In this document: one piece after another, positions 4,768 to 35,963 of the stretch
Position numbering within the stretch: position 1 is the stretch's first letter
Layout of the letters: every line of letters begins with the position of its first letter
Source: a virus
Virus record (IMG/VR): IMGVR_UViG_3300042485_000262
Location: 1 to 36,813 of that record
Length of the DNA stretch: 36,813 nt
Strand: one strand, 5' to 3'
The notes under the pieces: model-generated
Databases searched by the model: none
Seen by the model: only the letters and a program-made list of their open reading frames with translations
Told to the model about the DNA's origin: nothing
Program-made: the position numbers and the translations under genes

Positions 4768-6964
4768 TGTACTGACTCATTGCTCTATTGATGGTAATTT
4801 GATTGACAGCGGGCATGATCTTGCGCCACTCTGTGGGTGTTAGTCCCGTGATGTCTTCAACCAATATGGGATCAGCGGCCTGTGCAATATCGTTAAGACT
4901 GGTGTAGGTAGTGTTGTCACTCCATGCAACATCGATCAGTTTGAACACCTGCTTGAGAGCATAGCGAATACGCTGTACAGCTTCTTCTTGGGGATCTTGA
5001 TCGTTCTTGGGCCACCCACTTACTGGCTTCTTGAGCACACGCTTGTTGGCACCTGCCAGCACATCGTTCTTGTTTAATTGGCTAGTTGCTCGAGTTTGAT
5101 TAGCGTCTTTCTTCTTGCTCGCAAGTAGATCTGCAATGTCCTCTGTGATAGCATCACGTTCCACAGCTGAACCCACCCGATCCATATAGTTGTTGATATC
5201 CGATAGGAATCGCTTGCTGATCTCTTCTCCGTCTAAGGTGGTCCATTGATTGCCATCGTAGTCATAGACTTCGCTGACAGCCAACCACTGTGCGATCAAA
5301 GCAGCTGTGGGTGTGCCTGTGATAGTACTGACCTGCTCACAATGCTGATAAACCACACTGACAAAGCGTTCGGGCGCATAGTCATAGACCACAACACTAG
5401 TCTTGTCATCGTCTGCGTTGGGCGTCTTACAACGGAATGAGCCTTGGAAGTAGTCAGCTGCACTCTTGTCGTTGTTCATTTGATGCACTGACCACCATTC
5501 GGGCACTGATGTTCCTTCTAGGAAACGTCCACATGTCAGTGTGATAGTGCCCACACCGCCCTCAATGCCGTCACGCTGTATCAAGTTCTTGACAGTTTGG
5601 ATATCCTTGACACCCTTGCCGCTGGCATTGATGATCTTGCGTTTGCCAAAGAATGGATGCGTAGCCAGCATGTTAGCCAGGGCTGTGATAGCGGCCACAT
5701 CGTTGGGCAGGATCCAAAGAGCATGGCGGCTCAGCCGATCTGCTTGGGGGTTAAAGCGTTGGGGCGGTGTTTTATAGGTCTTGACCACATGTGTTAGGAA
5801 CTCATTGACAGCCATGGTATTCTTGAATTGACCCTGCTCTGTGGCCAGTAGTTTGGGGAAGGTGAAGCCATCTTCACCTATGAGCTCTTTGACCCGATCG
5901 GGCACAGTGATCATGGCATAGTTGATATCGGCTCTGTGCTTAAAGGCCTTGGCCACTACAGAGTCAGGGTCTGCCTGTGCAGCCTTGCGAAGCAGCTGTT
6001 CTTCCACGTAGTCAAAGTTGTAGACTCGATCCTGTTCATAGCGTCCACTTAGCACAGTCTTATAGGGTGTGCCGCTGAGTTCCAGCTTCTTAGCCATGTT
6101 GAGGCCTTCCCACAGACGTTCTGTATTGTCCGTTGTGGTTGCATAGTGCTGCTCATCAAAGGCCACTAGATCCCAGTGAGTAGCCAGGATATCTTTGACC
6201 AATTGATTGGGCTTGAGCCAATGTGTGTTTAGAAACTGTAGGCTAACAAATACCACGTTGACACCGGGGCCCAGATCCAGTCGCTTGATCTTCTTATAGT
6301 TGTGATAGTGCCAATCAACGTAGTTAACGTGTGTAGCGGCACCCTGGGGAAGCAGCTCTGCCCACGAGTCGTTGACACCCACTTTGGCTGTGACTACCAG
6401 AACTGTACGGGCTTTTTGGGCACGGGCTATTTCGTAGGTGATAAAACACTTGCCCGCCCGCATGATGGCATTGACCAATAGATCGTCATGTTTCTTGTAC
6501 TGAGTCTGGGCCCAGTCAACTATCTTCTGTTGATAGGGGAAAGCTGGAAAGGCTTCTTGTGCTAGGGCTCCGTGGCGTACTTCATTGACGATCTCACGAC
6601 CCACACGTACCACATTGTCCACACTCTTTTGAGCAGGGTCAAAGAACCATTCACTTGCTGTATTGTCACTGGGAACCCACATGCCCATGCGTTTCTGACG
6701 GGGGTGTAGTACACTCTGCTCTAGCTGACGTAACTTGCTGAGGCTAGTATGTTTATCCCCAGTTTCGCATAGATCGCTGACATCTTCTACCCAAAGGATC
6801 TCATAGGGATCTGCTGAGTTGGCCGCTGTGACCTGCTCACGAATACGCTGTTCCGCAGCTGCCCTAGCTGATATTGCCTTACGACGAGCTGATCCGTTTT
6901 TGACCTGATGGGCTCGCTTGTTGAGCTTGGTAGTGTACCAATAGATAACTGAGTAATACTTCAT
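4754..6964 (-). CDS. SF2 helicase, Res/DEAD-like, of a restriction-like operon
   Basis: A 736-aa superfamily 2 ATPase similar in layout to the Res/HsdR motor subunits of restriction systems. Motif I is NAIMRAGKCF (165-174), Walker B is DEQH (270-273), motif III is SGTPY (297-301) and a motif VI-like stretch is QGSFRCKT (507-514). The usual GKT/S is GKC here. The N-terminal 140 residues (very basic at first) and the C-terminal 150 residues match no nuclease I can see, so this is a translocase or helicase without an evident PD-(D/E)XK site. The gene looks more GC-rich than its flanks. It overlaps the SWIM gene by 4 nt and the MTase-like gene by 14 nt. Confidence 0.8.
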   Translation of the reverse strand: MKYYSVIYWYTTKLNKRAHQVKNGSARRKAISARAAAEQRIREQVTAANSADPYEILWVEDVSDLCETGDKHTSLSKLRQLEQSVLHPRQKRMGMWVPSDNTASEWFFDPAQKSVDNVVRVGREIVNEVRHGALAQEAFPAFPYQQKIVDWAQTQYKKHDDLLVNAIMRAGKCFITYEIARAQKARTVLVVTAKVGVNDSWAELLPQGAATHVNYVDWHYHNYKKIKRLDLGPGVNVVFVSLQFLNTHWLKPNQLVKDILATHWDLVAFDEQHYATTTDNTERLWEGLNMAKKLELSGTPYKTVLSGRYEQDRVYNFDYVEEQLLRKAAQADPDSVVAKAFKHRADINYAMITVPDRVKELIGEDGFTFPKLLATEQGQFKNTMAVNEFLTHVVKTYKTPPQRFNPQADRLSRHALWILPNDVAAITALANMLATHPFFGKRKIINASGKGVKDIQTVKNLIQRDGIEGGVGTITLTCGRFLEGTSVPEWWSVHQMNNDKSAADYFQGSFRCKTPNADDDKTSVVVYDYAPERFVSVVYQHCEQVSTITGTPTAALIAQWLAVSEVYDYDGNQWTTLDGEEISKRFLSDINNYMDRVGSAVERDAITEDIADLLASKKKDANQTRATSQLNKNDVLAGANKRVLKKPVSGWPKNDQDPQEEAVQRIRYALKQVFKLIDVAWSDNTTYTSLNDIAQAADPILVEDITGLTPTEWRKIMPAVNQITINRAMSQYNDFQ

Positions 6965-25768: not shown

Positions 25769-26218
25769 ATGCTACACATCATTAACAATCTTGCAGATCC
25801 CCTAGTAGATCTTCTGCGGGACGACCCTGTTCGTCCCGAGATACCTACTGCAGCTAGAGTACATGACTCAGCTGAGATATTTGTATGGATCCTAGATGGC
25901 AAGCCCGCAGCCGTTACCTGTGTGCGCTACTGTGCTGCTGTACCCCGTTCAGTACAAGAGCTGGATCAATCTGCAGAAGAAACAGTGGCTGTGTTCTACA
26001 CTATTTGGAGTTATCAAGCGGGTGCGGGTCGACAGTTGATACGTGCTGCTGCGGGACATATACAGAACAATCGCAAGGGCATTAGCCGTTGGGTAACACT
26101 GAGTCCCAAAACCGAAATGGCCCGCAAGTTTCATCACTCAAACGGTGCGCTGACACTTCAGGAAAACGACACCACCATCAACTACGAGTATCTATTAGAT
26201 ATCGTCAATGTTGTTTAA
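25769..26218 (+). CDS. GNAT-like acetyltransferase
   Basis: 149 aa with the layout of the GNAT family: strands EIFVWILDGKPAAVTCVRYC and VAVFYTIWSYQAGAGRQLIR, where the QAGAGRQL stretch stands for the acetyl-CoA pyrophosphate loop (normally Q/RxxGxG/A), then a helix and the C-terminal strand-loop with Phe/His (FHHSNGALTLQENDTTINYEY). Similar proteins are common in T4-like cyanophages. Substrate unknown. It overlaps the convergent helicase gene by 24 nt. No SD. Confidence 0.7.
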   Translation: MLHIINNLADPLVDLLRDDPVRPEIPTAARVHDSAEIFVWILDGKPAAVTCVRYCAAVPRSVQELDQSAEETVAVFYTIWSYQAGAGRQLIRAAAGHIQNNRKGISRWVTLSPKTEMARKFHHSNGALTLQENDTTINYEYLLDIVNVV

Positions 26219-27634
26219 CAGCTGACGCAACTTGGTACTTTCCACACGTACTTGACTAGTCTTGACCACCATGCCCTGTGTGGGATCTTGGGCTGCTATT
26301 TCGCCAGTAGCGGGATCAACGATCGAGTTACGTTTAATACTGTTCATAATGGTGCTGCTGCGGGTTTCACCTGATCCCGAGCTTTCATCACTTTGCTCTT
26401 CTGAGTTGGTAATGCGCAGTGTATCAATATCAAAGTCCAAGTCAATTTTCTGCCCAACACCACTTGAACTACGTGTCTTCATCAGCTGGATTTGATACTT
26501 GCCCCGTTCACGCATGGCTCTTGATGTAAAGATACCAAACACGTTATCTGCTGTTTGAATCTTTGATAGTCCACCTGAAATATGGCTGTGATCAAACTCA
26601 ACTTCTTCAACAGCACCACGGTTCAACTGTGCCGCTGTGACAAACACACAGTTCTTTTCCACAGCTAGGTTACGCAGCTCTTCTGATACATACTTGTCCT
26701 TGACAAACAAGTTTTCCGCTGAAATCTTCTTGCTTAGGGGCATGAGCAGGTCCATATAGTCCACTAGCAATACGTCACACTTGTGCCCCATTTTGACTTC
26801 GTATTCTTTTAGATATGCACGTACATCGTTGGCTGTTTTACCAGAGGGCATATACTTGACCTGTAGGTTACCACTCTTCTTGCCAATGACTTTGACACGC
26901 ATTTCCACTTCATCAATCTGTTTAAACACTTCTCTAGTAGGGATTCCAGTCAACATAGAGTCCACACGCATACTGACCAGTTCTTCTGAAAGTTCTAGTG
27001 TTAGATAGATAACATTAAGTCCAGCGAGTGCGTAATTTACTCCAAGATTAGCTAAGAACAGACTCTTACCAGCACCTGATCCACCAGCAAAGATATTGAG
27101 CTCACCACGGTTAAATCCACCAAACAGTTTCTGATCTACAGCGGCCCAGCCAGTTGAAATCTGTCCGTTCTTGTCCTTGATACGCAGTAGTCTAGCACGG
27201 GGATCTAGGAAGTAGTCAGTGCCCATGTCTTTCTGTAGGCCAATTTGCACTGCCTTCTTGATCAGTTCTTCTACTGGGCCATACTCACCTTTTTCCAACA
27301 GATCAGCTGACTCTAGAATAGCCTTTTCCAGACCCTTGTGACGTACAAAGGTTTCAAAATCTGTCAGCAACCAATCATAGTGTGCTTCCTGTAGATCAGG
27401 AGGAACAGCTAGGGTCTGTTGTGTGGCTGCGTTGACAATCTCAGGTGTGGGAATGATGTTGTGTTCATCTACATAGTCTTTGAGAAACTTGGCCACACCC
27501 TGTAGCTTGCGATCAAATAGACTGGGATCCCAAATGCCTTGACAGCGAACAAAGGTCTCTGCATCGCCCAGCATCATTTCTAAGTATAGCTTTTGGATGT
27601 CATATCCGTAGTCTGCGTTTTGTCTTGTTGTCAT
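26195..27634 (-). CDS. Replicative DNA helicase, DnaB/T4 gp41-like
   Basis: 479 aa, length and layout of T4 gp41: N-terminal helical domain (to about 150) and RecA-like motor with GGFNRGELNIFAGGSGAGKS (172-191; Walker A GGSGAGKS), a Walker B stretch DVLLVDYMDLL, and an AQLNRGA/ISGGLSKIQTADNVFGI region typical of DnaB-type helicases. It unwinds at the replication fork as a hexamer with the primase encoded upstream. The ATG lies 6 nt after a -10 box with no SD, so it is probably leaderless. Confidence 0.9.
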   Translation of the reverse strand: MTTRQNADYGYDIQKLYLEMMLGDAETFVRCQGIWDPSLFDRKLQGVAKFLKDYVDEHNIIPTPEIVNAATQQTLAVPPDLQEAHYDWLLTDFETFVRHKGLEKAILESADLLEKGEYGPVEELIKKAVQIGLQKDMGTDYFLDPRARLLRIKDKNGQISTGWAAVDQKLFGGFNRGELNIFAGGSGAGKSLFLANLGVNYALAGLNVIYLTLELSEELVSMRVDSMLTGIPTREVFKQIDEVEMRVKVIGKKSGNLQVKYMPSGKTANDVRAYLKEYEVKMGHKCDVLLVDYMDLLMPLSKKISAENLFVKDKYVSEELRNLAVEKNCVFVTAAQLNRGAVEEVEFDHSHISGGLSKIQTADNVFGIFTSRAMRERGKYQIQLMKTRSSSGVGQKIDLDFDIDTLRITNSEEQSDESSGSGETRSSTIMNSIKRNSIVDPATGEIAAQDPTQGMVVKTSQVRVESTKLRQLLNNIDDI

Positions 27635-27640
27635 TGTGTT

Positions 27641-27669
27641 ATTATATACTCTATTGTCAGTTAAGTAAA
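27641..27669 (-). promoter_or_regulatory. Sigma-70-like promoter of the helicase, leaderless
   Basis: TTTACT (27664-27669), 17 bp, TATAAT (27641-27646) on the minus strand; ATG 6 nt downstream. The -35 matches 4 of 6 consensus bases and overlaps the 3' end of the carbamoyltransferase gene. Confidence 0.6.
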
Positions 27670-29127
27670 GACTTTTACATCGTAATGGCTCTGGAAGTTC
27701 ATGGCATCCACTCGGTTATTGACCATGGGCTTACCCTTGATGTTTAGACTGGTGTTGAGCAACATGGGACATCCAGATCGATCATACCATGCTTCTAGCA
27801 CCTGTCTGATGGGTGTTCCATTTTGCGGAACTGTTTGAACACGACTAGTCCCGTCCCTATGAATGACAGCAGGAAATAAGTCAGGATGCCTACAGCGACT
27901 GATGTATTGCATATACCTATGATCACTGCTACTACCACACAGATCAAAGTACATGTCAGCATGTTCCTCCAAAATAACGGGCGCGAATGGTCTAAATTGT
28001 TGTCGTCTCTTGATTGCATTTACTGTGTCCTTAATATCATGACCTCTGGGATCTGCCAATAGGCTTCTATTGCCAAATGCTCTAGGTCCAAACTCTGCAC
28101 GTCCCTGTGCAACTCCGCATAGAGAATTGGTTATCAAGTGATCAACTATCTCATCGGGACTGGCTTTTATTTTCAAATCGTAACCTAGATCGCAACCTGG
28201 CCAAGGCATGTGTGTTCTAGTTTTGGCCAACACAGCACCAACACTGCTGCCAGCATCTCCAGGATTAGGCATGATCCAAACATGGTTGAAATGTTTGAAT
28301 GCAATGGGGTTAGCCGAACAGTTGAGCGCACATCCGCCCATGATTACCAAGTTAGTGCTGCCAGTCAGTGCCTTGGCCTTACTGATGATCTTGTCAAAAT
28401 AAGACTCGTATATTCTCTGTGTAGCAGCGGCAATATCAAATATATCGTTGACCACTAGGTCGGGTGCCCACTCTTGGCAACCTCGATGTAGATTGCCTTT
28501 TAGTGCAACCAGCTTACTAGAGTTGTCGTTAAAAAAGTCTTGCCTAATTCTATCATACAGTTTCTTTGGGTCGCCATATGCGGCCATACCCATTAGGATA
28601 TATTCTTCTTCGTTAGGCTTTAAAAAACAACGCTGTGTCATGGCTGAGTACCATAGACCTAGACTGTTGGGATAACTCTGACTGTATACTCGACGTAGTC
28701 CTTGTGGGCTACCTTGCCAAATAGTCAGTGTTTCAAACTCACCTATGGCATCTATCACTACCACGGCTGCTTCTTTATATCCGCTGGTATAGAATCCGCC
28801 AGCTGCATGACTTTCGTGATGCATAACAGTTGATATAGGTGCTGATACATTCCACTGTTTAAGATATCGTTTTATGTTATTGCTTCTATGATTGAATCCC
28901 TGCCCTGCATACCACTGTCTAGCGGTTTTGTATAAGGGCTTTTCGTACCACACTACTTCGTTGGGTTTACCCCAGCGATTTGCATATTTGACAATGCTGT
29001 CACATAGATCGGCATCATTTTTTTTGCCGCTGAATCTTTCGCTATGGCTAGCAAAGACTAGTTGATTGTCATCGAATACTGCCAGTGCGGCATCGTGACT
29101 GTTTGCTGAGATTCCCCAAGTAATCAT
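27661..29127 (-). CDS. NodU/TobZ-type carbamoyltransferase
   Basis: 488 aa. N-terminal ITWGISANSHDAALAVFDD and HHESHAAGGFYTSG (the metal/ATP-binding His motif) with VVVIDAIGEFE, then C-terminal YrdC-like GRAEFGPRAFGNRSLLADPR (carbamoyl phosphate/ATP binding) and KRRQQFRPFAPVI and LNTSLNIKGKP. These are the hallmarks of the NodU/CmcH/TobZ family, which transfers a carbamoyl group to hydroxyls. Homologues are frequent in T4-like phages; a role in DNA or glycan decoration is suspected but unproven. ATGA overlap with the 40-aa gene upstream. Confidence 0.9.
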   Translation of the reverse strand: MITWGISANSHDAALAVFDDNQLVFASHSERFSGKKNDADLCDSIVKYANRWGKPNEVVWYEKPLYKTARQWYAGQGFNHRSNNIKRYLKQWNVSAPISTVMHHESHAAGGFYTSGYKEAAVVVIDAIGEFETLTIWQGSPQGLRRVYSQSYPNSLGLWYSAMTQRCFLKPNEEEYILMGMAAYGDPKKLYDRIRQDFFNDNSSKLVALKGNLHRGCQEWAPDLVVNDIFDIAAATQRIYESYFDKIISKAKALTGSTNLVIMGGCALNCSANPIAFKHFNHVWIMPNPGDAGSSVGAVLAKTRTHMPWPGCDLGYDLKIKASPDEIVDHLITNSLCGVAQGRAEFGPRAFGNRSLLADPRGHDIKDTVNAIKRRQQFRPFAPVILEEHADMYFDLCGSSSDHRYMQYISRCRHPDLFPAVIHRDGTSRVQTVPQNGTPIRQVLEAWYDRSGCPMLLNTSLNIKGKPMVNNRVDAMNFQSHYDVKVFT

Positions 29128-29246
29128 TTGTAGATGAACGGATCTCGTTTACGTAATTCTGCTAAACGCTTTTTAAGCGATCGATAATCTTTATAACTTT
29201 CAATAGGATGTCTAATCCAATCCCATATTAACATTAGTTTATCCAT
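29124..29246 (-). CDS. Small basic phage protein (40 aa)
   Basis: 40 aa: MDKLMLIWDWIRHPIESYKD followed by YRSLKKRLAELRKRDPFIYK. A Trp-rich helix, then a very basic helix ending RDPFIYK. It overlaps the primase stop by 13 nt and the carbamoyltransferase start by 4 nt (ATGA), so all three are translationally coupled; AAGGATGAA is a good SD. It resembles small T4-like cyanophage proteins; function unknown. Confidence 0.7.
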   Translation of the reverse strand: MDKLMLIWDWIRHPIESYKDYRSLKKRLAELRKRDPFIYK

Positions 29247-30211
29247 TTTTTCATCCTTAGTTGTATTTTTAAAGGCATAGATTCTTTAGCAGATACAATG
29301 CTCCATAGTGTATATAGCCTTCCGTATTGTCGCATAGCATCATTTACATCTTTAACACCATCCGGCCAATCGGGCATACTAACTGACCAGCCTAGTTCAA
29401 TTGCCTGTTCAGCCATCTTGATACCTGCTGCATCTCTATCGGGAACTACAATAACTTCTCGATTAAGTTGATTGAGTAGAGCAACCTGTTGCGGTCCTAC
29501 TTCATTACTCATGACAGCACATCCATCTATGCATATAGCATCCAACGGGCCCTCTGTTATCAGTACAAATTTACGATCATGTGATTGTCTATCTAGATTG
29601 AATACATAGCCGGGCTGTTGTTCACTGATGTATTTGATCTTACCGTCTTTGACCAGTCGTGCTGTATAGCCTACAATTCTATTTTGATAAAAGAACGGAA
29701 CAATTAATCTGTTGTTAAACCCATCTTCAGGAGTCCAATAGAATGGATAGTCTTCTAGATATAATCCCCTACTGATCATGTATTCCATAACAGGCACTAG
29801 TTCTTCAGGTGGTGAATGTAGAAAACTACTAATGGGCTCTGACCCTAGTGGTAATGCCTTGTCTATGAATGTGGGCAACACCGCTTGAGTACCAACATAC
29901 TGCGGATCTTCTTTAAGGCGTAGTGCTTCAAGCACACACTTGTTAATTAGATCATCTGATGCATTTAACCAGCGTAGTAATTTTTTAAATTTAACACTTA
30001 GCGGCCTACCTGGTTGCCAACTGGCTTTGAATCCACAGTTAAAACAATGATAGCTAACGCCCTCGGTTATCATAATACCACCACGCTGCCGCTTATCCAT
30101 ACTGTCGCCGTTATGGTGACAACATACAGCATTGAAGCTGATCCACCCACTAGGAGTAGCTTTGCGCTTTGGAGGTAGATGTGCTGTAGTTGTGTCTATG
30201 ATGAGGCTCAT
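29234..30211 (-). CDS. DNA primase, zinc ribbon plus TOPRIM (gp61/DnaG-like)
   Basis: 325 aa. The N-terminal zinc site is formed by CCHH (30-33) and HCFNCG (55-60). The TOPRIM domain follows with VLITEGPLDAICIDG (catalytic Glu), VVPDRDAAG (DxD-type) and a final Gly/Asp-rich end. It makes RNA primers for the gp41-like helicase encoded two genes further on. It has a sigma-70 promoter with the ATG 6 nt after the -10 (leaderless, no SD). Confidence 0.9.
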   Translation of the reverse strand: MSLIIDTTTAHLPPKRKATPSGWISFNAVCCHHNGDSMDKRQRGGIMITEGVSYHCFNCGFKASWQPGRPLSVKFKKLLRWLNASDDLINKCVLEALRLKEDPQYVGTQAVLPTFIDKALPLGSEPISSFLHSPPEELVPVMEYMISRGLYLEDYPFYWTPEDGFNNRLIVPFFYQNRIVGYTARLVKDGKIKYISEQQPGYVFNLDRQSHDRKFVLITEGPLDAICIDGCAVMSNEVGPQQVALLNQLNREVIVVPDRDAAGIKMAEQAIELGWSVSMPDWPDGVKDVNDAMRQYGRLYTLWSIVSAKESMPLKIQLRMKKWIN

Positions 30212-31069: not shown

Positions 31070-31077
31070 TATTTATA
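31070..31077 (-). promoter_or_regulatory. T4-type late promoter, leftward
   Basis: TATAAATA on the minus strand, 21 nt before the ATG at 31048 of the structural gene. It overlaps the first base of the rightward ATG at 31077. Confidence 0.75.
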
Positions 31078-31451
31078 TGGTTAAACTAAGAGACAACATC
31101 GAAAATCAACTACCCTTTATAAGTGTGTTAAACTACGGCGAAGCAGAATACGTAGGTATCATAATCAACCAGGATCAGTTTGTTACTAGTTTTTATGATT
31201 TAGAATCTATCAAAACACCTGAAGAAAAAACAATGCTATTAGAACTTGGAGAAGCCTGGTGGTGGGAGTCGAATCGTCAGATTCCTATAACTATCTTCTT
31301 GCGCAGAGAGATCGAGCCATTTAAATACAGTATCAAAACATTTAATTCCAAGGATGTTAAGATTGTATTAGGACCCGTAGTTAACCTAATGAATCTTACG
31401 TTAAAGCGTATTAAACGTAAGAGTGTACAATTAGTCCGTAAAACTCGTTAA
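31077..31451 (+). CDS. Hypothetical protein (124 aa), late promoter
   Basis: 124 aa, alpha/beta with a basic tail (KRIKRKSVQLVRKTR). Motifs: EAEYVGIIINQDQFVTSFYD and LRREIEPFKYSIKTFNSKDV. Resembles small hypothetical proteins of T4-like cyanophages; function unknown. It is alone on the plus strand with a TATAAATA 46 nt upstream; no strong SD. It overlaps the convergent DnaE-like gene by 4 nt. Confidence 0.7.
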   Translation: MVKLRDNIENQLPFISVLNYGEAEYVGIIINQDQFVTSFYDLESIKTPEEKTMLLELGEAWWWESNRQIPITIFLRREIEPFKYSIKTFNSKDVKIVLGPVVNLMNLTLKRIKRKSVQLVRKTR

Positions 31452-32026
31452 CTGAAATCGTAGCTGATTTGTTCGCAAATTAAATTCATTTGCACCACTA
31501 CAACCATGGCATAAGCTACAGCATGGGCTTTCTTAAAGTAGTAGTCACCGTTCTCGGGTTTCTCCCAAATCGTCTTCCCAATCTCCGTCCATTCCTTCCC
31601 TATAAGGTGTTTCTTCGCTGGGCGGATTAAAGCGAGACACATTGCCAATTCGTTGATGGAAGATGGCTTCATCTGTCTCAATAAGCTCCCATACCCATTT
31701 ACGTGGAATAGTAAAGCCGTGAAATCGTCTTGTTCTAATAGATCCCATAGTGGTTCTGTCTCCATTAACTTATGCAAGTGAGCGTCATCCTTAACGCCTT
31801 TGTATATACTAACATTCAAAAAATCTAATTTAAAATATCCTCGATCTTCTGCCTGTTTATAGTCTATGTTTGAGAGATTAGTTGCGGGGTCGTGGGGTAT
31901 ACTTTGTAGGTAAACACCTGTGTTGTGTCCCACTAATTTGTCATTGTCGATACGACTTGCCTTGACGTGTTTAATGACGCCAAGTGCCGAATCTCTATCA
32001 AAGAAATCAATGTCAATATCTGGCAT
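31448..32026 (-). CDS. Miniature DnaE-like (C-family polymerase palm) protein
   Basis: 192 aa that aligns end to end with the catalytic core of bacterial DNA polymerase III alpha, which is about 1160 aa. MPDIDIDFFDRD (1-12) matches the palm motif PDFDVDF, YFKLDFLNVSIYKG (64-77) matches FDFLGL, FHVNGYGSLLRQMKPSSINELAMCLALIRP (107-136) matches the ESRGM...RPGP block, and FKKAHAVAYA (164-173) matches FNKSHAAAYA. The three Asp that bind metal in DnaE (two in the first motif, one in the second) are all kept at 3, 5 and 68. PHP, thumb, fingers tip and C-terminal regions are missing. Coupled to the 59-aa gene by TAATG. Catalysis is unproven. Confidence 0.75.
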   Translation of the reverse strand: MPDIDIDFFDRDSALGVIKHVKASRIDNDKLVGHNTGVYLQSIPHDPATNLSNIDYKQAEDRGYFKLDFLNVSIYKGVKDDAHLHKLMETEPLWDLLEQDDFTALLFHVNGYGSLLRQMKPSSINELAMCLALIRPAKKHLIGKEWTEIGKTIWEKPENGDYYFKKAHAVAYAMVVVVQMNLICEQISYDFS

Positions 32027-32205
32027 TAATGTTTTACCTCTGATTCAAATAGTATTAACGGTAGTGCATCTACCAAGTATGATGCGTATGCATCTGCTGA
32101 TGCTAGGTCGTCAAACCCAGTTAGTTTTACATATACTGCTGTGTCATCTTCACTAAGGATAACTTCTAAATCAAGTTTTTGTGCGTCTAAATTTGGTGTG
32201 ATCAT
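32026..32205 (-). CDS. Small acidic protein (59 aa)
   Basis: 59 aa: MITPNLDAQKLDLEVILSED, then beta/helix (AVYVKLTGFDDLASADAYASY). It overlaps both neighbours (4 nt and 1 nt), so it is coupled within the DNA-replication operon. Acidic; could be a small accessory factor of the DnaE-like protein. No family recognised. Confidence 0.7.
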   Translation of the reverse strand: MITPNLDAQKLDLEVILSEDDTAVYVKLTGFDDLASADAYASYLVDALPLILFESEVKH

Positions 32206-32903
32206 AAGTTTGATTCCTTAACTACTTCTCTAACTAATTCTAAATCACCTCGATATTTTTTAAACTTATTAACCCATACCGGTGGATCTATGACAGTACT
32301 TATCGAAGATAACTGCTCATCGCTTAATGTACTTAGTAGATTTTTGCCACTAGTACAGTTGAGTATTAACCATGGACTAACTTTACCGTCTTTAATGTCA
32401 TAGGTGGCTCTGTTAGTACTAACATATTTAAAATAGTGATTCCATAGACTGTTATTATCGTTTGCCCACGCCTGCATATGAGTTACACTACGTTGTAGTG
32501 CGGTTTCTACATTTTCAGTATGAATTAGCTCTAACACATATTTTTCATATAGCTCGTCACGACACCAATGATCTAATTTAACTCCGCTACGCACAACCCA
32601 ATCAATATAGTTATCCGGATACAACGGACCAACATTGCTAACATAACTACCAAATTTTACAAATGCATTGTAGTAAGGACTACGTGCAAATTCATCATAT
32701 GTTTTAACTGATTTAGCCTGCTGTGTCAGTTGATAAAACCTAACATAGGTCTGATACCCCACTACTACATGTTTCTCTTCTTTGGCCAAGTGTCTACGTT
32801 TCTGTTCACACATATGAACAGTCAGTGTCTTTTCTTGTGTGTATGCTGATTTACAAAATTGACAAATATAAGGTTTATTGTTCACGCTTAAATTTAACAT
32901 CAT
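32202..32903 (-). CDS. Hypothetical with N-terminal C2H2-like zinc finger
   Basis: 233 aa. Residues 11-31 (KPYICQFCKSAYTQEKTLTV then HMC) form a C2H2-type finger: CxxC-x12-H-x-C. The remainder is helical, with the block FVKFGSYVSNVGPLYPDNYI and an aromatic segment near DHWCRDELYEKY. I recall similar proteins in T4-like phages near the clamp-loader genes but cannot name the function. Overlaps both neighbours, so it is part of a coupled operon. Confidence 0.7.
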   Translation of the reverse strand: MMLNLSVNNKPYICQFCKSAYTQEKTLTVHMCEQKRRHLAKEEKHVVVGYQTYVRFYQLTQQAKSVKTYDEFARSPYYNAFVKFGSYVSNVGPLYPDNYIDWVVRSGVKLDHWCRDELYEKYVLELIHTENVETALQRSVTHMQAWANDNNSLWNHYFKYVSTNRATYDIKDGKVSPWLILNCTSGKNLLSTLSDEQLSSISTVIDPPVWVNKFKKYRGDLELVREVVKESNL

Positions 32904-33376
32904 TAAAACATCTTAGCAATTTCTTGTTTGCTATATCCGTGGCTTTCGGCTAATTCTTTAAGTTCGGCAAGTGTGGATATTTCTGCCAACACTTGAATTT
33001 CATCATCCTTGAGATGTGGGAATTTTTCTTCTAAGAACTTAATACGCTTGTTGTCGCCTTTCTTTTTCTTAAAGCCTATCCACTCATGATAAAATATCTT
33101 TTTACTTTCATGACTGCACATACACAACAGTTTCCACATTAACTTTGGATGCTTTTGTAAATCGAACCAGTACTTGTTAAAGAATTCATTGACTGTTAGT
33201 ACAAAATGTTCTTGGGTCTCCCTAGGCTGACTTTTAACATTTGACACGTATCTGTTAAGGATAAAAAACTCTTGCTTGAGAGATTTTTGTTGATCTGCAT
33301 CTATTTCATCCCACATGGTTGTAGCACCCATGTCAACGGCTGCAAGTTTTTCTTTAAGTTCGATCTTTTCGCTCAT
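32903..33376 (-). CDS. Probable clamp-loader small subunit, gp62-like
   Basis: 157 aa, all-helical. The pattern matches the gp62 family of T4-like phages: SKxVSN-type helix (FFILNRYVSNVKSQPRETQE), HFVLTVNEFFNKYWFDLQKHPKLMWKLLCM, a basic WIGFKKKKGDN segment and a C-terminal helix pair ending SYSKQEIAKMF-like. gp62 supports the sliding-clamp loader gp44 at the fork. Divergent, so this is an identification by helical pattern and order of genes, not by a catalytic motif. Confidence 0.5.
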   Translation of the reverse strand: MSEKIELKEKLAAVDMGATTMWDEIDADQQKSLKQEFFILNRYVSNVKSQPRETQEHFVLTVNEFFNKYWFDLQKHPKLMWKLLCMCSHESKKIFYHEWIGFKKKKGDNKRIKFLEEKFPHLKDDEIQVLAEISTLAELKELAESHGYSKQEIAKMF

Positions 33377-34490: not shown

Positions 34491-35963
34491 TTATTTCCAG
34501 TCTATCTTATCTATCGTGAACGGATATTTGGCTTCTTTATAAAACTTCTTCCTCGCCGTAAGATGCCGCTTTGCGTACTTACATGTTGAGGTGATATCCC
34601 AGATCTGAACGAAGTCTTTGTCTTCCGCTTTTCTAATGCCTCGCCCAATGCTTTGTATAACCCTTGTAAAGCTCTTTCCGGACTCCACCATAACCAGATT
34701 AAAAATCCTAGGGATATTAAGACCAACAGCGGCCACACCGTAAGTCGCCACAATAATCTTATTGTCAACAGTTTTAATTTCGTCATACTCTGTCTTTCTA
34801 TCTTTAGTTTTTACTTCGCCTGAAATAAACACACTACCTTCAATCTCGTTAACGATAAACTTACCAGTCTCAATCCTGTTAACTAAGACTAATGTGTTAC
34901 CACTTTCAGCAATACCTTTGATCATCTTACTAATATAGATCATACGAGTTTCATCAGTTACTAGATACTTGTATTCTTCAGCATAACTTTTAAACTCTGG
35001 CAGATCAATGAGTTGCGCAACACTAACATGACAATTAGACAACACACCTAACTCTTGTAACTCGTGGGCTTTGATGCCTCCGATGACTGGCCCAATGCTG
35101 GCAAATATCTGTTCGTACTCAAATGCTTCCTTAGGTACAGTGCCAGTTAATCCCCAACGAATTGGAGCATTTGCTAGGTTCTGTGTTAACAAGTTTTTCA
35201 ACACTTCTGCTTTGGCCATATGCACTTCGTCTACAATGACACACTTAACACCTTCAAGAAACTCTGCCAATGTCAATATAGCATGTTCCATATTCTTACT
35301 TTTCTTGTCAAGAATATTAAGACTTTGCCAAGTACAGATAGTATGCGTTTTGTAGAGATCCTTACGGTCTCCGTAGTACACACCTACATCTAATCCCACG
35401 TTGACAAAGTCTTCTTCAGTTTGTTCAACTAGTGACTTGTTAGGAACAATGGTAATAGTTCTACCTAGAGGTTCGCATAGTTGTGCCAAGGTAGCGGTGG
35501 TAATAGTCTTACCTGCACCTGTAGCAACCTCTTGCAAGGCTTGTGGATTTTCTAAGAATCGATTTACTGTGTCTACTTGATAATCACGAAGCATGATAGG
35601 CTGACCTGCTTGTTGATGTCCTTTAGGCCAACACTTGCCTTGGTCAGCCCAATATGTTTCAGTAACTTTATTAAACTTAATATTTGCCGGTTGTCGTTGG
35701 TCCTCGACCTCACTTACATCATAACCAGAGTTTTGAAGTATTTCTAGAATACGCGGTAATTGGTTAATATAGCCGTTGCCGCCCATGCCGAATAGTGTAG
35801 TCTGTCCATCCCATCTACCTAGTTTGTATGCTGGATGATACTTGGCATATGGTATTTCGTACTTAAACTGGTTAGACAATTTTCGTCGAATTTCAACTGG
35901 CAGTCCTTCTAATTTGATATTTACTTCATCTCTAATAACTAGTTTACACAATGACATCAACAT
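34491..35963 (-). CDS. uvsW: UvsW-like SF2 helicase
   Basis: 490 aa, close to T4 UvsW length (about 500). The N-terminal UvsW domain (KYHPAYKLGRWDGQTTLFGM) precedes the helicase core: motif I ATGAGKT (147-153), DEVH (245-248), TGT in place of SAT, and motif VI QSIGRGIRK near the C-terminus. UvsW branch-migrates DNA and unwinds R-loops, which shifts replication from origin to recombination start in T4. Overlaps the upstream gene by 20 nt. Start ATG-CTT-ATG ambiguous by two codons. Confidence 0.9.
   Translation of the reverse strand: MLMSLCKLVIRDEVNIKLEGLPVEIRRKLSNQFKYEIPYAKYHPAYKLGRWDGQTTLFGMGGNGYINQLPRILEILQNSGYDVSEVEDQRQPANIKFNKVTETYWADQGKCWPKGHQQAGQPIMLRDYQVDTVNRFLENPQALQEVATGAGKTITTATLAQLCEPLGRTITIVPNKSLVEQTEEDFVNVGLDVGVYYGDRKDLYKTHTICTWQSLNILDKKSKNMEHAILTLAEFLEGVKCVIVDEVHMAKAEVLKNLLTQNLANAPIRWGLTGTVPKEAFEYEQIFASIGPVIGGIKAHELQELGVLSNCHVSVAQLIDLPEFKSYAEEYKYLVTDETRMIYISKMIKGIAESGNTLVLVNRIETGKFIVNEIEGSVFISGEVKTKDRKTEYDEIKTVDNKIIVATYGVAAVGLNIPRIFNLVMVESGKSFTRVIQSIGRGIRKAEDKDFVQIWDITSTCKYAKRHLTARKKFYKEAKYPFTIDKIDWK

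Follow-up and report, generated by a model that had tools for sequence, protein, structure and literature searches.

What use would a phage with a T4-type replication cluster have for a 192-aa protein that resembles a small piece of the bacterial replicase DnaE? The question is raised by a 36.8-kb stretch of viral DNA (36,813 nucleotides, here called the window), in which the minus-strand open reading frame 31448..32026 encodes such a protein. The frame, which begins with ATG just as delimited in the preliminary description, has a GAGG-type ribosome-binding site, and its start codon overlaps the stop codon of the upstream gene. That description regarded the product as a stand-alone DnaE palm that might be an active mini-polymerase or repair enzyme, a decoy binding clamp or loader components of the host, or a structural relic. 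On the evidence presented below, it is very likely that the window protein is the C-terminal unit (C-unit) of a split minimal phage Pol III alpha.

Genomic setting and identity of the window protein

The window holds minus-strand genes for a DnaB/gp41-type helicase (26195..27634), a T4 gp61-type DNA primase of the Toprim kind (29234..30211) and a UvsW-type helicase (34491..35963), in agreement with the T4-type replication cluster recognized earlier. The C-unit gene overlaps at its 3' end, by 4 bases, a convergent small gene (phrog_11637, 31077..31451, plus strand), and a conserved neighbour lies upstream (phrog_11058, 32202..32903, minus strand), the gene in the same place in PAC2 being called C2H2-type. 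The order C-unit, convergent ORF, 'structural' or hypothetical gene, primase and helicase recurs in RaK2, CBB, PAC2, Phosso and Atu_ph07, except that Phosso and Atu_ph07 have an extra gene and Atu_ph07 has no annotated primase. Upstream of the C-unit, uvsW or a helicase is found in RaK2, CBB, PAC2 and Phosso. An overlapping neighbour on the opposite strand also occurs in Atu_ph07, RaK2, PAC2, Phosso, CBB, Slicko01, XaC1, SCTP-2, 121Q and Munch, and is not seen in XacN1 or RAS14. In addition, a carbamoyltransferase with both Pfam halves is encoded between the helicase and primase genes (27661-29127, minus strand) and could play a part in modifying DNA bases or sugars. The 157-aa protein encoded at 32903-33376 (minus strand) gives a sub-threshold match to Pol_alpha_B_N of the eukaryotic Pol alpha subunit B (E 0.0088), which is probably due to chance.

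The window protein matches the PHROG 11778 profile 'DNA polymerase' at 2.2e-71, with residues 3-186 on positions 8-194 of 197. Taken alone, it remains below threshold against the Pfam Pol III fingers model (E 0.0018, 18.1 bits, cut-off 22), and phmmer finds only weak matches in the PDB, both of them Pol III alpha. A profile of 53 sequences reaches the Pol III alpha chains of the PDB at E 1.2e-4. The hhalign match of the C-unit profile to the single E. coli sequence is weak (E 0.026); fold comparison was decisive. The AlphaFold2 model of the C-unit, computed on a 53-row alignment (pLDDT 88.6, pTM 0.69), has DnaE or PolC in all 14 of its top rows (Z 9.1-5.4), with 155-188 residues aligned at rmsd 4.2-5.4, and the first unrelated row follows at Z 3.1; Foldseek gives modest E-values (best 2.7e-4). 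Structure prediction thus yielded no better match to an unrelated fold than to the DnaE/PolC palm, and the DnaE-type order of the palm motifs claimed before is supported by both alignment and predicted fold.

Fold comparison and alignment confirm that PHP, thumb and C-terminal half are missing from the protein, much as stated in the preliminary description, and alignment with DnaE indicates that the mid-fingers (E. coli ~646-750) are gone as well. The chain starts with MPDIDIDF (32003..32026, minus strand), the catalytic strand of DnaE (E. coli 399-406), which contributes the first and second catalytic Asp as D3 and D5. The GS nucleotide-binding motif is not in this chain; in relatives it is carried by another protein, the N-terminal unit (N-unit). 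Modelling suggests that the window chain holds one half of the family C palm fold, the other half residing in the N-unit of the relatives.

The N-unit, the break point and the distribution of the pair

The N-unit is defined here as a separate gene of the relatives bearing the DnaE-palm segment that precedes the catalytic Asp, including the GRGS motif. Its product has ~170 aa (156-185 aa) and ends in the loop equivalent to FERFL. A PF07733 search of 11 relatives' records detects the N-unit gene, at profile positions 12-98, in eight of them: all five phage records and all three contigs of at least 269 kb. The N-unit model (pLDDT 90.7), of which only residues 60-168 match DnaE/PolC, covers E. coli DnaE ~270-393, and the profile alignment ends the N-unit at 392; the C-unit model covers 401-784, starting at 400-403. 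Both models match only C-family polymerases, at adjoining stretches. Because the N-unit model ends at 393 and the C-unit model begins at 400-403, the predicted folds place the split at E. coli DnaE 393/399, within loop 393-398, which separates the GRGS segment from the first catalytic strand. N-unit residues 1-60 (e.g. 5001-5180 of locus L101) are confidently predicted and matched by no DnaE structure in the comparison.

Consequently, the palm is not 'stand-alone' as first described: relatives encode the GRGS half of this palm in a gene of its own, so that the C-unit alone cannot form the full active site. No natural fusion was found, since of 160 loci of up to 10.6 kb not one contains both units; their distance in relatives is usually tens to ~190 kb (~180-186 kb in three long contigs). 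The CBB N-unit precedes the clamp-loader gene by 1.1 kb. A PF07733 search of the 36.8-kb window gave no match, because this palm model needs the N-terminal half, and the window's own partner is out of view since the window is only a 36.8-kb fragment. Two candidates for additional pieces were rejected. A weak PF07733 stretch at 53 kb in CBB (E 5.8e-4) is interrupted by three stops within the matching frame and is ascribed to chance, and a separate fingers piece was dismissed when, in 8 of 9 records, the fingers model matched only at the C-unit. The fingers model also gave an additional CBB stretch at E 0.019, inside a 565-aa frame.

By tblastn, 63 phage records contain the C-unit and 60 contain the N-unit. 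When the two listings were compared by eye, 58 of 60 C-unit phage records, among the matches listed (60 of 63), also had the N-unit. The two records without it by tblastn were PP728206.1 (109 kb) and OQ508956.1 (Slicko01, 141 kb, complete), and in the latter the N-unit was found by profile (E 2.6e-15). This complete genome of an Alishewanella phage (locus L099), well below jumbo size, has both units, so that the occurrence of the split polymerase extends beyond jumbo phages. In a profile search the N-unit was present in 5 of 20 records, the other 15 being contigs of 58-148 kb. Among viral contigs, there are at least 552 candidates for the C-unit family and at least 596 for the N-unit family. 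The hosts of tblastn-detected C-unit phages range from Agrobacterium and Sinorhizobium to Pseudomonas and Enterobacteriaceae. In cellular genomes, relatives occur at four loci, all from MAGs with contigs of 3.5-60 kb, and these are likely phage contigs binned with cells.

A family B polymerase, which the preliminary description ascribed to T4-type phages, is encoded in all 16 relatives tested (9/9 and 7/7). It is divided into two open frames in Slicko01 (OQ508956.1, 3529-5033, 578 + 322 aa) and in Atu_ph07 (NC_042013.1, 212336-213688, 578 + 418 aa). A PHP domain was detected in none of nine relatives' records, the 14 controls all being positive.

Active-site residues and possible function

The retention of the three Asp in relatives had been named earlier as a check. 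All 14 sequences of a diverse phage set, and all 87 C-units of a larger one, retain D3, D5 and D68 (E. coli D401, D403 and D555). The smaller set, consisting of the window and 13 phages first found by tblastn, is free of motif-pattern selection. In contrast, invariance in the larger sets (87 and 88 rows) arises partly by selection, because short peptide patterns that contain the motifs were used to choose loci L001-L080 and L100-L179; some rows are near-identical, and L093 and L101 lie on one contig. Invariant in all 14 C-units are D3, D5, D7, H34, K66, D68, R135, P136, K138, H168 and Y172, whose E. coli counterparts are D401, D403, D405, H511, K553, D555, R639, P640, H760 and Y764, K138 being left out of the positions tabulated against DnaE. 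K66-L67-D68 (31823..31831, minus strand) corresponds to E. coli K553-F554-D555 and provides the third catalytic Asp and its adjacent Lys. R135-P136 (31619..31624, minus strand) corresponds to R639-P640, equated with Mtb R667-P668 of the base-pair pocket, and FKKAH (31523..31537, minus strand) contains H168, the equivalent of H760. According to the accessible text of the respective sources, DnaE has this catalytic triad with H760 as its proposed steric gate (PMC8485763), Mtb Arg667 and Pro668 belong to the base-pair pocket, and Mtb R667 and H787 contact an inhibitor occupying the position of the new base pair (PMC8922275). Mtb R667 and H787 are equated here with E. coli R639 and H760.

On the N-unit side, the G.GRGS core is present in 88 of 88 sequences. 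DnaE Arg390 is Arg in all 75 full-length sequences and Glu in 13 of 14 aligned N-units (the 14th being an alignment gap), and its position is Glu or Asp in 88 of 88 N-units of the larger set; in the Slicko01 N-unit, inspection by eye shows Glu at this place. The list of invariant N-unit positions from the 14-sequence comparison is left out of account, because its Slicko01 row came from a wrong frame (a helicase). By alignment, C-units are also devoid of the fingers stretch bearing R709/R710. The full-length set comprises E. coli and 74 ORFs from viral contigs, 74 of 80 dnaE loci having entered the alignment and six with open frames below 700 aa having been dropped. Divergent rows are locally misaligned, with one gap each at D401 and H760 (C-units) and at Arg390 (N-units); despite these gaps, the equivalents of D401 and H760 are present in all 14 C-units. 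In Taq Pol III alpha, we take the residues corresponding to R390, K553 and the R709 region to contact the triphosphate; a literature search found no paper giving the triphosphate contacts of DnaE. If R390 and R709/R710 make such contacts, dNTP binding of the split pair must differ.

The window protein is proposed to be the C-terminal half of a minimal two-chain nucleotidyltransferase of family C (Pol III alpha type). It would supply the triad of catalytic Asp with the neighbouring Lys, the Arg of the base-pair pocket and the steric-gate His, and the distantly encoded N-unit would contribute the preceding pair of helices together with the nucleotide-binding GRGS motif. Presumably, the two units associate non-covalently and rebuild one palm active site, and the pair may perform short, distributive synthesis linked to repair, gap-filling or recombination rather than fork replication. 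Auxiliary synthesis is favoured because thumb, PHP and C-terminal half are absent and a family B replicase is encoded in the same genome. With a probability of roughly 0.6, the halves assemble into an active auxiliary polymerase for repair or gap-filling, polymerisation and role both being inferred. The earlier reading as an active mini-polymerase or repair enzyme accordingly survives in two-chain form, its activity being presumed. Against it, the dNTP side is changed, a grip on DNA is hard to place in an enzyme without a thumb, and there is no fixed proofreading partner, since a DnaQ-type nuclease domain occurs in only 4 of 9 relatives.

The same changes leave some room, although distinctly less, for the split pair being a nucleotidyltransferase with a remade nucleotide pocket, engaged in untemplated tailing, priming or end-modification rather than templated polymerisation. 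The Asp triad and GRGS core are retained, whereas an acidic residue stands at the Arg390 position and both the thumb and the R709/R710 segment are lost. Such a two-chain, thumb-less family C enzyme, with a rebuilt dNTP-side pocket but invariant metal, base-pair and sugar contacts, and assembled only when both halves are made from their two separate replication clusters, would be a distinct nucleotidyltransferase and not a trimmed replicase; this reading seems rather doubtful. The base-pair-pocket Arg and steric-gate His are nevertheless invariant, and roles in pairing and sugar choice are assigned to them in the available portions of PMC8922275 and PMC8485763. Still less probable is a non-catalytic scaffold, in which a folded palm holds replication or recombination proteins and keeps its Asp for structure or metal. 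Loss of the thumb and mid-fingers would be expected to cripple processive synthesis, and of the two replication clusters that contain the genes, one has primase and helicase nearby and the other, in CBB, the clamp loader, but active-site positions are selectively conserved in proteins only 32-55% identical to that of the window.

The remaining two readings of the preliminary description fare poorly. The window protein resembles the core of the host replicase and could in principle be a decoy binding host clamp, loader or proofreading parts. DnaE contacts these partners through its PHP domain and C-terminal half; precisely these parts are lost, and active-site residues are among the invariant ones, so that a decoy is very improbable. 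Least probable of all is a degenerate relic of a captured dnaE: the gene is a small fragment of a large one, but it appears, as judged from substitution patterns, to be under purifying selection (dN/dS ~0.10), it gives a single match per record in 16 of 16 relatives, and it has been kept from alphaproteobacterial to enterobacterial phages. The dN/dS values (median 0.097, range 0.043-0.165) come from 45 pairs among 70 sequences, with 85-99.5% protein identity and dS <1.5, and serve as a description and not a test because the non-independent pairs share sequences.

Relation to known polymerases

An active enzyme rebuilt from both halves, with ~360 aa divided over two chains against 1160 aa in E. 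coli, would have, to our knowledge, the smallest core of any family C polymerase. An active pair would make testable which parts of a bacterial replicase the chemistry needs, and would explain why many large phages have a second, bacterial-type polymerase beside their family B replicase. No biochemical test of a split Pol III alpha was found in the open-access literature searched.

The window protein belongs to a kind already described by Iyer et al. The split minimal Pol III alpha of jumbo phages was reported there in 2021 (PMC7824862), and the split pair itself is therefore not new. In the accessible part of that paper, many large phages carry the two-piece enzyme beside their own main polymerase, with two distantly encoded proteins, one N-terminal and nucleotide-binding, the other C-terminal and binding Mg and template, as here; the pair stands beside a family B polymerase, as in the relatives examined here, and no difference in kind from the window protein emerges from that part of the text. 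It was also proposed there that the two-part form resembles an early state (PMC7824862), which an active pair would make testable. What is added here is the exact break at 393/399, the invariant residues, the Arg-to-Glu change, the loss of the mid-fingers arginines, the dN/dS values and the pair in a 141-kb phage. As far as the available text of these papers goes, a 172-aa 'truncated' alpha subunit, CBB_328, was noted in PMC5259590 and is the N-unit of CBB, and a Pol III alpha subunit was named in Atu_ph07 (PMC6102473).

The closest known proteins are CBB gp287 and RaK2 ORF124 ('DNA polymerase'), which share the family (phrog_11778) and gene order of the window protein. Its 32-55% identity to the C-units of isolated phages holds among the matches listed (60 of 63), and it begins directly at MPDIDIDF, whereas the RaK2 and CBB proteins have 10-20 extra residues. 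With DnaE and PolC, the C-unit has in common the palm, part of the fingers fold and the active-site residues; the split pair differs from them in its two chains, in lacking PHP, thumb, mid-fingers and C-terminal half, and in the replacement of Arg390 by Glu. A functional parallel only is offered by ASFV, which carries a minimal viral polymerase of family X according to the accessible part of PMC11646218: this too is a virus-encoded repair polymerase cut to its nucleotidyltransferase core, but it is of another polymerase family and consists of a single chain.
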